DNA from: Gemmatimonadaceae bacterium | GTDB taxonomy: Bacteria; Gemmatimonadota; Gemmatimonadetes; Gemmatimonadales; Gemmatimonadaceae | Reading direction: 5' to 3' | Length of the DNA: 64,000 nucleotides | Assembly: GCA_019637445.1 (NCBI GenBank) | Contig: JAHBVS010000002.1 | Span: 62,001-126,000, forward strand | Shown: positions 15,320-23,753 of the stretch, one piece after another | Numbering within the stretch: position 1 is the stretch's first letter | How the letters are laid out: the number at the start of each line of letters is the position of its first letter | Notes under the pieces: generated by a model | Databases searched by the model: none | What the model was told of the DNA's origin: nothing | What the model saw: the letters and a program-made list of their open reading frames with translations, nothing else | Program-made: the position numbers and the translations under genes

Positions 15320-16792
<1,473 letters not shown>

Positions 16793-16863: not shown

Positions 16864-17223
16864 TCAGCCGACCATATCGAGCTGCGCCATCCGCGTGCGC
16901 GGCGGCCGCGCGTAACCGAATGCGGCCTCGCGCTGGTTGCGCAGCTGGCCCATCTCGCGGGAGAGCTCGCCCATCCGCTGGCGCATTCGCTCCTGCAGTC
17001 CCTCAGCCTTGGCGGACATCTCCAGCAGCAGCGTGATTACCGCACCGCGCTCGGCGTGGTATTGGGGGTCACGCGCGGCAATGCCGATGACCGGCAACAG
17101 CTCAAGCACGGACCCAAGGCGCTGTTCGAGCATTGCACCGGGCGTCGAGACGTCGTCGCCGATGGCAATCATTTCGCGCTCCAGCGTCTCCAGAGCCGCG
17201 CGCGGTGTGGCGTGGCGCATCAT
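16864..17223 (-). CDS. FliT-like flagellar chaperone (tentative)
   Basis: Predicted 119-residue helical protein directly after fliS. The start ATG overlaps the fliS stop (TGATG). The sequence is mostly amphipathic helix (ALETLEREMIAIGDDVSTPG, LLEMSAKAEGLQERMRQRMG, ELSREMGQLRNQREAAFGYA). This fits FliT, the FliD chaperone, which usually follows fliS and is poorly conserved, but no residue motif proves it. It lies in a fliD-fliS-fliT order with its likely client. Confidence 0.6.
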   Translation of the reverse strand: MMRHATPRAALETLEREMIAIGDDVSTPGAMLEQRLGSVLELLPVIGIAARDPQYHAERGAVITLLLEMSAKAEGLQERMRQRMGELSREMGQLRNQREAAFGYARPPRTRMAQLDMVG

Positions 17224-17609
17224 CACGAGGCCAGCCGCTGCGGCGTGTCCTGGATCTGCACCCAGGCATCGCGCAGCTCGCGCACGATGTGGATGTGCCG
17301 GTCCAGCATGTTCACGTCCCCACGCAGCGCCACCGACCCCATCTCGGTCAGCAGGAACACGTAGAGGGCGGAGAGCTGCTTGGAGAGATCGCCGCCGACG
17401 GAGTGGTCCAGCGTGGCCAGCAGTTCGCCGAGCAGGCCGCGCGCGCGGTCGAGGCCGCTGCTCGTCACCTGCTCGTCCTTCATCGCGATGCCGACGCGGG
17501 CGCGCGTCATCGCGGCCAGCAGGGCATCGTAGGTGATGACCAGTAGACGGCCAGGCGAGGCGGTGAGGATCTCGGCTTCGCGGTACTGCTGCACCGACGG
17601 ACGCGGCAT
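17223..17609 (-). CDS. fliS: Flagellin export chaperone FliS
   Basis: Flagellin-specific chaperone of 128 residues that binds the C-terminal helix of FliC and keeps it unfolded for export. The conserved start YREAEILTASPGRLLVITYD and the ARGLLGELLATLDHSVGGDL region match the FliS four-helix bundle. The gene lies between fliD and the FliT-like gene, the common order. The initial MPRPSVQQYREAE replaces the usual MYxNAYxxQYxxx start. Confidence 0.93.
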   Translation of the reverse strand: MPRPSVQQYREAEILTASPGRLLVITYDALLAAMTRARVGIAMKDEQVTSSGLDRARGLLGELLATLDHSVGGDLSKQLSALYVFLLTEMGSVALRGDVNMLDRHIHIVRELRDAWVQIQDTPQRLAS

Positions 17610-17640: not shown

Positions 17641-20331
17641 TCAACGGTCTGAGGTCGTTGCGCGGAGGGAATCGATCTGAGCGGTCAGGGCGGAACTCAG
17701 TGCCTGGGACTTCGCGAGGGCACCTTCCATCGCCACGAACTGGCGAATCAGGGCATCGCGCCGGGCATCGAGCCGCTTCTGGATGTCGTCTAGTCTCGGA
17801 TCGATCGCGTCAGCCTTAAGCGTTGCCGTCGTGCTTTGGAGGGCCGCACCGCTGGCTTCGGACGCCAACTCCTGCGCAATGCGCCCCAACACCCCGCCAA
17901 TGCCAAGCGAGAGTGTGACGCTGCCGGCCGCGCGGGCCGTCGCCCCGGTGTACCGGATGGCCAAGCCCTCGGCGTCGTCGCTGGCGCCGCCCGTGAGGAT
18001 CTGCCCACGGCCGCTCGCCACGACACCATTGATGCTGCCGGCGACATCGAGTCCGCTGTAGCTGCCGGCGGCGATGCCCAGCGTAGAGGTGCCGTCCGCC
18101 GAGCCCGGCGTGTAGGCCACCGTGAAGCCGCCGTCGGAGCCGTACTCGGCCGACACGATGCGCAGCGCACCGCCTGACTCCTCAGCCGTCAGCCGCACGC
18201 TCTCCGCGGCAAACGCCGTGTTCAAGCGCAGCACGATGGCGGCCAGGGTGTCGCCGTCAGCCAGCGCCACGCTCGCCGTGCGACCCGTCGCCCCATCCGT
18301 GATGGACATCGTGTCCGGCGTGCCGGCGGTGGAGTAGGTCGCGAACGCCGCGCCGATGGTCTCCGCCTGCGTGGCCACCTGCGTGATGTCCACCGCGTAG
18401 CCCGTGTCGGAGGGCTGCGTCTTGCTGCCAGCGGCGATGAACTCCACCGACGCATCGCTGGCGCTGCCGGCGAGCGAGAAGAGGCGCCGCACACCCGTGG
18501 GGTCGGCCTCGAGGGCGGCGCGGAAGGCGGTGTCCTTCAGCGAGAGCACGCCGTTCTTGTCGCGCTCCAGGCCCGCCAGCGCCGCCGACGTGTACACGCC
18601 CGTGGCGCCGACCACGGTCTGCAGCAGCGCCGTGCTCATCGACTGTGCCATCGAGCGCAGCGAGGAGCTGTTGGCCAACGTGCCGCCGGCGGCGCTGTTG
18701 GTCGTGGCCCAGGACTGCACGGCGTTGTAGGCCGTCGCGAAATCGCGCAGCGTCTTGGCCACGGCTTCGAGGTCCTGCTGCACCTGCACCGTCGTGATCG
18801 CGCCGACCTCGGCGCTCAGCGCCGAGATGGTCAGGCCGGGGATGGCGCTGGAGATGGTGTTGGTGGAGCTGCGGATCAGCTGGCCGTCCACGCGCACCTG
18901 CGCGTCGGCGCCGGCGGTGATCACGCGGTCGCGGCCCACGGTGCCGTTGGCGGTGTTGAAGGTGCCAAGGCTGATCGACGAGCCACCGCTGCGCGTCAGC
19001 GTCAGCGAGAGGCTGAGGGCGGAATCGCCCGCGGTGCCATCGCTGAGCTGCACGCGGCCCGCGCTGAGCGAGGCGGCCGCGCTGCGGCTGCCGGCGCCGA
19101 AGCCACTCGTGCCATCGCCGATGGCATCGAGCAGGTCCTGCAGCGTGCTGCCCGCGCCAACCGCGAAGGTGTGCTGCACGGTTGTTCCGTCGCCGCGCGT
19201 GCCACCGATGGTGATCGTGTCACCATCGGCCAGCGCGAGTGCCTGGCCATTCACCGTGAGGTTGCTGAGCAGGGAGCTGCCGGTCGCGGCAAGTCCGCTG
19301 CTGCTGTCGCCGTAGGCCTGCGTCGCGGCCACGACCTGGGCAATGCCACTGCGGCCTTCCTTCGTGAAGCCGAGCACGGCCATCGCGCGCGCCGAGTTCA
19401 CCGCGTCGCCCGCATCCACTTCGACCGGGAGATCCGTCTCCAGCCAGTAGCGCGTGGATGATCCCACTTTCTCGCTCATCACGCGCGCGGAGTCGGGCAG
19501 GCCGGTGGCCGCCGCGATGCGCGCCGCGATGCTGGTCAGCGAGTCGTTCTCGAGGTCGACCGTGATGCTCTGACCGCCCACCGTGATGGTCGACGGCGTC
19601 GGCAACGGGATGCCGAGCATCGTGGCCACCGCGGCCGTGCCGCTGGAGACGCGGAAGGTCTTCGTGGCGCCATTGGCACCGATGTTGGCCTGCACGCTGC
19701 CGTCGGTGAAGCCGAGCGACTGCAGCACGCCGCTGCCGTCGCCCAACAGTTCCACGCCGGCAGTGCCGGTGGCCTGCGCGCCGAGCACGAGGCGAACGCC
19801 GGTGCCGGACGAGAGCAGGGTGGCCGTCACAGCGGTCGAACCGCCGCCGGCGGCGGCCGTGTTGATCTTGTCGCGCAGCGTGGTCAGCGTGTCATCCGCC
19901 GTGACCGTGACGCTGCGTCCATTGATGCTGAAGCTGCCGGCCACGCCAAGCGCGGTCGTCGCCGCCGACGCGACGGCGCCGCTCAGGCGCTCTGCGCGCG
20001 CGGTGCCGAGCACCTCGATGGCATAGCTGCCGGGTTGAGCCTTCTCGCCGGCGGAGACTGAGACCAGCTCACGTCCACTGGCGGGACGGAGCAGCGTCGT
20101 CTTGAAGACATCGAAGCTCGTGGGGGCCTGCAGACGCGACGCCGCATCACGGAAGGTGCCGACCAGCGTCTGGAATTGCCGCCAGGCGTCGGCCTGCGAG
20201 CGCAGCGCGCTCTGGCGCTGGGCCAACGGGTCGAAGCGGCGGGCGGCCTCGGCGTCCATGATCTGGTCCACGAGGTCGCGCCATTGGATGCCGCTGGCAA
20301 TGCCACTGATTGATGCGAGAGGTTGCGTCAT
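17641..20331 (-). CDS. fliD: Flagellar filament cap protein FliD (long form)
   Basis: Cap protein (HAP2) on which flagellin polymerises. At 896 residues it is longer than the usual 450-700. The N-terminal FliD domain starts MTQPLASISGIASGIQWRDL and VDQIMDAEAARRFDPLAQRQ, both family hallmarks. The middle is filled with Ser/Thr/Gly-rich repeats suggesting extra surface domains. The C-terminal FliD domain has LSLKDTAFRAALEADPTGVR and the final coiled-coil PRLDDIQKRLDARRDALIRQ-FVAMEGALAKSQ. Upstream is fliC; downstream are fliS and a FliT-like gene. Confidence 0.94.
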   Translation of the reverse strand: MTQPLASISGIASGIQWRDLVDQIMDAEAARRFDPLAQRQSALRSQADAWRQFQTLVGTFRDAASRLQAPTSFDVFKTTLLRPASGRELVSVSAGEKAQPGSYAIEVLGTARAERLSGAVASAATTALGVAGSFSINGRSVTVTADDTLTTLRDKINTAAAGGGSTAVTATLLSSGTGVRLVLGAQATGTAGVELLGDGSGVLQSLGFTDGSVQANIGANGATKTFRVSSGTAAVATMLGIPLPTPSTITVGGQSITVDLENDSLTSIAARIAAATGLPDSARVMSEKVGSSTRYWLETDLPVEVDAGDAVNSARAMAVLGFTKEGRSGIAQVVAATQAYGDSSSGLAATGSSLLSNLTVNGQALALADGDTITIGGTRGDGTTVQHTFAVGAGSTLQDLLDAIGDGTSGFGAGSRSAAASLSAGRVQLSDGTAGDSALSLSLTLTRSGGSSISLGTFNTANGTVGRDRVITAGADAQVRVDGQLIRSSTNTISSAIPGLTISALSAEVGAITTVQVQQDLEAVAKTLRDFATAYNAVQSWATTNSAAGGTLANSSSLRSMAQSMSTALLQTVVGATGVYTSAALAGLERDKNGVLSLKDTAFRAALEADPTGVRRLFSLAGSASDASVEFIAAGSKTQPSDTGYAVDITQVATQAETIGAAFATYSTAGTPDTMSITDGATGRTASVALADGDTLAAIVLRLNTAFAAESVRLTAEESGGALRIVSAEYGSDGGFTVAYTPGSADGTSTLGIAAGSYSGLDVAGSINGVVASGRGQILTGGASDDAEGLAIRYTGATARAAGSVTLSLGIGGVLGRIAQELASEASGAALQSTTATLKADAIDPRLDDIQKRLDARRDALIRQFVAMEGALAKSQALSSALTAQIDSLRATTSDR

Positions 20332-21539: not shown

Positions 21540-21547
21540 CCTTGCTT

Positions 21548-21581
21548 CTCCTGATTGGGTGTCGGGAGCATCCGTGCTCCC
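21548..21581 (-). promoter_or_regulatory. Candidate CsrA-binding leader of fliC
   Basis: In the fliC mRNA, GGGAGC-ACGGAU-GCUCCC is a perfect 6-bp stem with GGA in a hexaloop (or 7-bp with a CGGA tetraloop), very like the CsrA consensus. A second GGA lies in the ribosome-binding site AGGAGA, 8 nt before the ATG. Two GGA sites, one over the Shine-Dalgarno, is the arrangement known for the Bacillus subtilis hag leader. Confidence 0.65.
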
Positions 21582-21618: not shown

Positions 21619-21645
21619 GTGTCGGGCGGTCGGCGCGGGACTTTA
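21619..21645 (-). promoter_or_regulatory. Sigma-28 promoter for fliC
   Basis: On the minus strand TAAAGTCC-N11-CCCGACAC, close to the FliA consensus TAAAGTTT-N11-GCCGATAA with exact spacing. The predicted start site lies about 70 nt upstream of the fliC ATG, giving room for the hairpin leader. Confidence 0.7.
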
Positions 21646-21672: not shown

Positions 21673-22164
21673 TCAGTCCAGGACACCCGCGGGAACGGTC
21701 GACCGCACGGACCAGGCGCCACCGTCAATGACGCACTGCACGCCCGTGCGCGTGCGCCAATTGATAAGGATGAGCCCGCAGAGATTCGCCGTCGCCGGCA
21801 CGCCCTCGGCCCCAAGCGTAACGGGCGCGAACACGGCCACGTCGTCGGTGGGCACGGCCCGCAACGCGCGCTGCGCGTCGCTGGGCACCATCACCGAGAA
21901 GCCGGGGAACGCCGCGAAGGGATCGACCAGCAGGAGCGCGAGCTCCGGCGTCTCCGCCGACTGCAGCCAGGCCGCCTGTGGCCGGTCGGAAGCCAAGACC
22001 AGCCACTCGCGCTGCGCGGGGAAGCCGAGCAGGCCATCCGCGAAGGTGAGCACGTGCGCGCGGTCCACGGACAGCGGGCCGAAGAGCGTGTGCACTTCGC
22101 GATGCGAACCGGTGGTCGGCGGCGTGGAGTGCGAGGTCGGGGCAGGGAGCGTCGCGAGACTCAT
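21673..22164 (-). CDS. fliW: Flagellar assembly factor FliW
   Basis: Predicted 163-residue FliW: it binds flagellin in the cytoplasm and otherwise sequesters CsrA, so that flagellin translation matches export. Conserved parts are the ILTF-like start (VLTFADGLLGFPAQREWLVL), the PELALLLVDPFAAFPGFSV stretch and ATANLCGLILINWRTRTGVQ. About 20 extra residues precede the family start. It lies between flgL and fliC; its start overlaps the flgL stop. No csrA, its usual neighbour, is present in the window. Confidence 0.92.
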   Translation of the reverse strand: MSLATLPAPTSHSTPPTTGSHREVHTLFGPLSVDRAHVLTFADGLLGFPAQREWLVLASDRPQAAWLQSAETPELALLLVDPFAAFPGFSVMVPSDAQRALRAVPTDDVAVFAPVTLGAEGVPATANLCGLILINWRTRTGVQCVIDGGAWSVRSTVPAGVLD

Positions 22165-23066
22165 CGGATGTAGTCGGCGAGGGAAAGGCCCGCCACGCGG
22201 GCCGTGGCCGCCATCGCGGCCTGATAGGCGGTCTGACGACCGGCCAGTTCGGTGAGCGCGGTCTCGAGGTCCACGTCGCGCAGGTCCGAGATGTTCGCCT
22301 CGAGGTCCAGCGCGACCAGCGTGTGCGTGAGCTCGACGCTCTGCAGCTGGTTGGCGCGGGCGCCCGTCTCGGCGATCAAGGTCTGTGTGCGCGACAGTGC
22401 GGTGTCGAGCGCCGGGAGCGCATCGCGGACCGCGGCGCCGTCGCCCGAAGCCAGGGCGGCGGTCAACTGCGTCAGCGCCGCCAGCGGCCCGGTGGTGTCG
22501 TCACCGAAGACCGTGAGTCCGTCGTGCGTGGCGGTGAAGCGCTGGCCCGCGGCAATCTCCACGGCGCGCGTTCCAACTGGTGCTGGCGTGGCGACCGTGA
22601 GGACGGGCGCCGCGCCGGACGTATCCAATGAAAAGGGCGCCGCGTCGCTGCGCACGCCGCCAAAGAGGAACTCGTTGTCGAATTTCGTCGCCGCCAACTG
22701 CACGGCGTCGCTGAGCAGCTGTTCTGCCTCGCGCGCCACCGCCGCACGTGTGGCCGGGGTGGCGGTGTCGGAACCCTGGCTCACCGCGAGCTCGCGCGCG
22801 CGCGTGATCAGGTCGGTGAGACGGCTGAGCACGCTGTCCTCGAGGTTCACCCGCGAGGTCGCGCTGCCGATGTTCCGACGATACTGCTCACGCGCACGCA
22901 GCTGCGCCTCGTTCTGCATGATGCCCAGCGCGGCGCCGGGATCGTCGGATGCGGTGTTGACGCGCCGGCCCGACGAGAGCCGGGCGAGCACATCCTCCAG
23001 GCTCGATCGCGACGCCGTGATGGCGTTGATGGCCTGCAGGGTCGAAGCGTGGTTGGTGACGCGCAT
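22161..23066 (-). CDS. flgL: Flagellar hook-filament junction protein FlgL
   Basis: Junction protein (HAP3) of 301 residues. The start MRVTNHASTLQAINAITASR and the LARLSSGRRVNTASDDPGAA segment are the flagellin-like D0/D1 signature of FlgL; EFLFGGVRSDAAPF is the FlgL-specific loop. The C terminus (ALTELAGRQTAYQAAMAATA) is the matching helix. flgK, its usual neighbour, is not here. The best promoter candidate lies almost against the ATG. Confidence 0.94.
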   Translation of the reverse strand: MRVTNHASTLQAINAITASRSSLEDVLARLSSGRRVNTASDDPGAALGIMQNEAQLRAREQYRRNIGSATSRVNLEDSVLSRLTDLITRARELAVSQGSDTATPATRAAVAREAEQLLSDAVQLAATKFDNEFLFGGVRSDAAPFSLDTSGAAPVLTVATPAPVGTRAVEIAAGQRFTATHDGLTVFGDDTTGPLAALTQLTAALASGDGAAVRDALPALDTALSRTQTLIAETGARANQLQSVELTHTLVALDLEANISDLRDVDLETALTELAGRQTAYQAAMAATARVAGLSLADYIR

Positions 23067-23468: not shown

Positions 23469-23753
23469 ATGAAGATTGACCGTTCCGTCGGCCCCGCGCC
23501 GATCCAGCCCACCCCGACCTCGTCGCCGCGCGTTCCTGCGCGCCAGTCGGAGTCTACCGAAGCGCCCAGCGCGCCCGCCCCTCGCCGCGACTCCGTGGAG
23601 TTTTCCGCGGCCGGTCGCGAGTTCGCCTCGCTGCACCCCGATCGTGTCGCGCGCCTCGAGCAGGTGCGTGAGCGCCTCGCCACCGACTTCTACTCGTCGC
23701 CGGACGTGCTCCAGTCCGTCGCCCGTCGCCTGCTCGCCTCCGGCGAGATCTGA
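23469..23753 (+). CDS. flgM: Anti-sigma-28 factor FlgM
   Basis: Predicted 94-residue FlgM-family protein. Such proteins bind sigma-28 (FliA) and are exported through the finished hook, releasing the sigma factor. The N-terminal half is Pro/Ser/Thr-rich and disordered, as in FlgM; the C-terminal half has RRDSVEFSAAGREFASLHPD then ARLEQVRERLATDFYSSPDV-LQSVARRLLASGEI, matching the FlgM pattern D-x-V-x-L-S, helix R-x-x-L/I, and the final ...va..ll.sg.. helix. A good ribosome-binding site precedes the ATG. The next gene is cheY. No fliA is in the window. Confidence 0.8.
   Translation: MKIDRSVGPAPIQPTPTSSPRVPARQSESTEAPSAPAPRRDSVEFSAAGREFASLHPDRVARLEQVRERLATDFYSSPDVLQSVARRLLASGEI

Follow-up and report, generated by a model that had tools for sequence, protein, structure and literature searches.

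The closest described systems to the fliC leader considered here are CsrA-controlled flagellin leaders. In the Bacillus subtilis hag leader the CsrA sites lie at A51-A55 and C75-G82, and sites in Clostridioides difficile fliC have been predicted (PMC8523840). The Campylobacter jejuni flaA leader is described as carrying two ANGGA stem-loops, the second over the ribosome-binding site (RBS), with a third GGA as the second codon, and the evidence reported for it includes compensatory changes in relatives, gel shift, footprints and mutants (PMC4894983). The hcnA loop bound by RsmE reads ACGGAU, and an ANGGAX hexaloop set directly on its stem has been proposed as the high-affinity form (PMC4005645). 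In Leptospira a single flgN-flgK-flgL-fliW-csrA operon is described (PMC8668096). Among the literature retrieved with Gemmatimonad names and CsrA or FliW, none was on the subject by title or abstract, most subscription papers falling outside the coverage.

The window, that is, the whole stretch of 64,000 nt analysed from a Gemmatimonadaceae bacterium, contains a flagellar locus in which the fliC leader is read here as a CsrA-controlled translational operator within a FliC-FliW-CsrA homeostasis loop (probability about 0.9). Features of the locus are collected in Table 1. Scored against the sigma-28 consensus over 270 nt, 37 of 47 loci have their best sigma-28-like place between -104 and -115. 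In the window this predicted promoter occupies the gap separating fliW from the hairpin, so a separate fliC transcript is probable. Other frames near the flagellar cluster include a 94-aa frame at 23469-23753 (+), FlgM-like (anti-sigma-28) by eye and with no Pfam match at E 0.01; a 120-aa frame after fliS at 16864-17226 (-), with a weak FliT match of 20.2 bits (cut-off 29.5); and, adjoining the cluster at 15320-16792 (-), an NtrC-type response regulator with a sigma-54 activation domain.

Table 1. Features of the fliC region, in window coordinates.
Feature	Position	Strand	Basis and remarks
Leader hairpin GGGAGC-ACGGAU-GCUCCC	21564..21581	(-)	Direct reading, conservation and covariation; predicted high-affinity CsrA site
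Hexaloop ACGGAU	21570..21575	(-)	GGA at 21571-21573; matches hcnA RNA loop in RsmE structure (PMC4005645)
AGGAGA, Shine-Dalgarno with second GGA	21547..21552	(-)	Direct reading; spacing from loop GGA 22 nt, 20-26 nt in relatives' leaders where measured
Further GGA overlapping A of start codon	21539..21541	(-)	Direct reading; conservation not claimed
fliC, flagellin, 369 aa	20430..21539	(-)	Pfam Flagellin_N 117.2 bits, Flagellin_C 89.6 bits
fliW, flagellin-binding CsrA antagonist, 163 aa	21673..22164	(-)	Pfam FliW 83.6 bits; PDB 5dmb_A E 3.5e-12
flgL, hook-filament junction protein	22161..23066	(-)	Pfam Flagellin_N 70.5 bits, weak Flagellin_C; named by size and gene order
fliD, filament cap	17641..20331	(-)	Pfam FliD_C and FliD_N
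fliS, flagellin export chaperone	17223..17609	(-)	Pfam FliS 91.3 bits
Sigma-28-like promoter TAAA-N15-CCCGACAC	21619..21645	(-)	Best-scoring place against the sigma-28 consensus

Read directly on the minus strand, the leader runs ...GAG GGAGC ACGGAU GCUCC CGACACCCAAUCAGGAGAAGCAAGG AUG, with the hairpin stem GGGAGC/GCUCCC. The initial annotation had described this hairpin in the fliC mRNA with a GGA in its loop, a second GGA in AGGAGA at the RBS, and FliW encoded one gene upstream. Direct reading confirms both GGA elements, the stem forms in ViennaRNA, and the upstream gene is identified as fliW by Pfam; the range 21548-21581 that was given covers both hairpin and AGGAGA, and the description is correct. 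ViennaRNA also closes the loop A-U as a seventh pair, which would be open if the loop acts as a CsrA hexaloop. The leader contains four GGA: one each within the loop (-34), the Shine-Dalgarno (SD) sequence (-12) and the 5' arm of the stem, and one overlapping the ATG. The structure of the RsmE-hcnA RNA complex is presumably PDB entry 2jpp.

The layout had been likened to the CsrA target of B. subtilis hag; the match is upheld and extends to C. jejuni flaA (PMC8523840, PMC4894983). As in hag, an upstream site is followed by a second, which in hag lies some 24-27 nt further by the printed positions (PMC8523840). Shared with flaA, as described for C. jejuni, are a first GGA site in a stem-loop upstream, a second over the RBS and another GGA close to the start codon, along with compensatory changes among relatives and the presence of both csrA and fliW in the genome (PMC4894983). 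Unlike flaA, the SD site of the window is without a clear hairpin, although many relatives have one, and unlike the C. jejuni arrangement fliW adjoins fliC and the CsrA site is a predicted one (PMC4894983). The hexaloop is identical to that of hcnA and likewise set directly on the stem, whereas the hcnA hairpin covers the RBS itself and the target there is hcnA mRNA (PMC4005645).

Taken alone, the motif is not unusual: the 64-kb window contains four ANGGAN hexaloops on stems of 6 bp or more, where 30 dinucleotide shuffles average 1.57. Folding energy of the 116 nt around the hairpin is ordinary (z-score only -1.23), and whole-leader folding energy was set aside as evidence. The case rests on comparison, namely position, conservation and covariation. 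An Rfam search of the leader gave no match over the gathering score and three sub-threshold ones, all on the opposite strand.

FliC is present in 52 of the 149 genomes searched, own genome included; one scan against named genomes places the closest FliC proteins in Gemmatimonadetes or Gemmatimonas metagenome bins, and the organism is accordingly assigned to Gemmatimonadota. Leaders were read from 48 genomes, one each and the window's included (47 by script, L025 by hand), and the hairpin is present in 47 of them, with its GGA at -33 to -39. Alignments A1 and A3 hold 47 of the 48 leaders and A2 holds 46; L049, which lacks the hairpin, was left out of all three. In A1, which is gap-free with 47 rows (44 distinct), the invariant columns are loop A11, G13, G14 and A15, and all six stem pairs counted show changes on both sides. 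Cells of the stem pair in 92.8% of cases, compared with 74.8% in shuffles, and the covariation score is 0.549 versus 0.232 when shuffled (0 of 500) and at most 0.162 for slid versions of the stem. Without any structure as input, RNAalifold recovers precisely the inner 5-bp stem. The hairpin, whose absence from relatives would have counted against the initial annotation, is thus conserved and covarying through the phylum.

The exception, L049 (also L253; G001:C60), comes from a same-genus assembly and precedes a divergent, flagellin-like 679-aa frame on a 5.5-kb contig; the leader has no hairpin, and the genome no csrA or fliW. It is possibly a contaminant or a divergent flagellin outside the switch. 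Since the short contig may be contamination, G001 was given no weight as a natural negative control.

Two rival readings of the hairpin were weighed. As an inverted repeat in the intergenic space separating fliW and fliC, it could be a terminator or attenuator; it is not followed by a run of T, however, it stands just upstream of the SD and downstream of the predicted fliC promoter, and conservation is higher in its loop than in its stem, so that this reading is given almost no credence. Alternatively, the hairpin could be a conserved structure that, without CsrA, stabilises the fliC mRNA or insulates the RBS, which would be compatible with a G+C-rich stem located 5' of the RBS. Protection by a stem does not depend on a particular loop, yet A-N-GGA-N is read in 47 of 47 leaders while every stem pair varies, and, together with the distribution of the hairpin given below, this makes such a role improbable.

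At the second site, the SD GGA lies at -10 to -15 in all 46 hairpin-bearing leaders measured. A small local hairpin around it is possible in 34 of the 46, and in 23 the GGA sits in a 6-nt loop with at least 3 bp. Treated as a fixed 4-bp helix, the SD hairpin has a covariation score of 0.305 against 0.151 in shuffles (0 of 500), with only 51.7% of cells paired and a one-column slide still scoring 0.202. From these alignments the SD hairpin is taken to be real in a subset of relatives. As a general rule it is rejected for the leader of the window, in which a local hairpin scan finds no clear hairpin holding the SD GGA; being outside a clear hairpin, the SD site of the window may be a weaker one. 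In one family of leaders from a sister order, L238, L240, L241, L246 and L247 (5/11 of the family) display two tandem upstream ANGGAN hairpins in addition to the SD GGA, which makes three candidate CsrA sites per leader.

No csrA lies in the window, as the initial annotation had stated, and its proposal that the gene be sought in the genome is answered by a single csrA over the Pfam cut-off (PF02599), at G000:C2:49540-49695 with 68.6 bits. The gene comes directly after flgK, its start 11 nt past the flgK stop (L001; G000:C2:48040-51195); its distance is 12.3 kb from the window and about 34 kb from fliC. The order flgK then csrA is kept in 30 of 31 loci and flgL then fliW in 31 of 31, with a 4-nt overlap of fliW with the flgL stop in the window. 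As in B. subtilis, CsrA, FliW and flagellin are all present; fliW and csrA, adjacent and coupled in B. subtilis, here follow flgL and flgK respectively, about 34 kb apart (PMC6529632, PMC8523840). As in Leptospira, csrA and fliW are carried by hook-filament junction genes, which are described there as one operon and form two separate pairs in the window organism (PMC8668096).

Both proteins resemble partners of known structure. CsrA matches 1t3o (E 1.8e-8) and chain D of 5dmb, the CsrA of the FliW complex (E 9.6e-6), and FliW resembles the CsrA-bound FliW of the same entry (Table 1). Residues were surveyed in 17 CsrA sequences out of 31 loci tried, 14 loci without a simple start-pattern match being left out. 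L4, R6 and R44, which we take to be the RNA-contact residues, are invariant in 17 of 17, the window organism's CsrA included. In B. subtilis N55 of CsrA matters for FliW binding. At position 55, 10 of the 17 have N and 7 have T; the organism of the window has T, so that binding of FliW to CsrA is not assured from sequence.

In a first draw of 149 genomes csrA occurs in 48 and fliW in 47. A wider draw of 395 Gemmatimonadota genomes was searched with R1, a covariance model made from 47 leaders; the building leaders match by construction, and the wider draw includes many genomes not used for the model. Here fliW is found in 97 genomes, csrA in 102 and both in 96. R1 reaches at least 28.9 bits in 90 genomes, comprising 87 of the 96 with both genes, 1 of the 292 with neither, and G183 and G342. 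The sole positive genome with neither gene, G165, contains no flagellin. R1 matches of 25-30 bits in G165, G157, G013, G029, G309, G372 and G253 are without a flagellin match and were judged false. Nine genomes with both genes score below 28.9 bits; six of these have a 4-8 bp hairpin by eye (G149, G215, G219, G332, G360, G393). G152 has a 28.4-bit match before flagellin, G327 a stem of 3 bp only, and G266 no fliC in the assembly, just a flgL-like match. A FliW match is absent in G342, but the contig ends 38 nt beyond the hairpin. Two fragmented assemblies are incomplete for the set, G183 having fliW and hairpin with csrA not found, and G305 having csrA, flagellin and hairpin with FliW not found. 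This tracking of csrA and fliW by the hairpin also argues against a merely stabilising structure.

The same counts bear on how CsrA activity would be set. CsrA might bind the leader and yet be governed by CsrB-like RNAs rather than by FliW, as gamma-proteobacterial CsrA is controlled (PMC4894983). A search for the CsrB family gives no match in the own genome, with the E. coli control positive, although other antagonist RNAs are possible; fliW and csrA co-occur, both being present in 96 genomes of the 97 with fliW and 102 with csrA; and FliW and BarA-UvrY are reported as anti-correlated (PMC4682653). Control by such RNAs is accordingly considered highly improbable, and FliW is the antagonist favoured here.

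Within the own genome R1 scores 36.2 bits at fliC and 15.2 bits at the next place, which is inside coding sequence; as a search for other CsrA targets it gives nothing above 15.2 bits besides fliC. Within the window, the two places that rank next fall in the tuf-rpsJ spacer and at the RBS of tuf. As R1 is tuned to the fliC layout, low scores elsewhere are no proof that CsrA has no further targets.

R1 also picks up flagellin leaders in other phyla. A survey of 67 flagellin loci from other phyla, most of them clostridial, finds ANGGAN hairpins with 4 bp or more between -55 and -24 in 26, compared with 9 of 1340 random places drawn within the same loci; 4 of 79 loci were left out because the match started at the C-terminus. 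That flagellins of other phyla share the loop again counts against a simple stabilising stem. The three alpha-proteobacterial loci of the survey have no such hairpin.

Leaders of similar form occur before genes other than flagellin. G150 and G153, genomes of a deep class that carries two csrA genes, have the twin-hairpin leader before an orphan protein of 76-79 aa with no Pfam match (L269, G150:C7:4595-4869; L271, G153:C109:21724-22006). By its leader sequence this protein is a possible non-flagellin CsrA target; searches of the own genome and of four further members of the deep class did not find it. The same leader layout precedes a 170-aa frame (L270, G150:C40:28297-28341) in what by eye is a phage-like gene cluster.

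Three things are read from the genomes themselves: the covarying leader, the csrA and fliW genes, and the fact that these genes and the hairpin occur together. Membership of the leader in the known kind of CsrA-FliW flagellin control is well supported; its working as a switch is modelled on B. subtilis, C. jejuni and C. difficile, from which all binding and regulatory steps are taken. On this model fliC would have a sigma-28-type promoter of its own, and the transcript would begin with a leader of about 73 nt that would offer one GGA in the ANGGAN hexaloop at -34 and another in the SD at -12. With the two GGAs 22 nt apart, one CsrA dimer could bridge both and block the ribosome. FliW free of flagellin would bind CsrA and lift the block, and cytoplasmic flagellin would trap FliW, so that unsecreted flagellin would shut off its own synthesis until export resumes. 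In this way a switch of the kind found in Bacillus and Campylobacter probably couples flagellin production to filament assembly. The FliW-CsrA-flagellin switch predicted in the initial annotation is supported as a prediction, csrA being present, the hairpin conserved and covarying, and the layout matched.

Whether the switch is wired differently from that of the model organisms is a more speculative matter. With csrA after flgK and fliW after flgL, flagellin translation could report the balance of FlgK and FlgL production, not just free flagellin, and three-site leaders could bind more than one CsrA dimer; both together are regarded as doubtful. If more than one dimer were bound, three-site leaders could give a sharper response or make fliC mRNA a CsrA sponge. 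Specialists might not expect to see csrA and fliW divided between the two junction genes, nor leaders with three sites.

With nothing at threshold in Rfam and R1 finding flagellin leaders of other phyla, the leader could become a searchable RNA family. The FliW-CsrA-flagellin checkpoint is extended as a prediction to a phylum with little genetics, by phylum-wide covariation and not by resemblance alone. This supports the view, raised for Campylobacter, that flagellar control may be an old core job of CsrA (PMC4894983).
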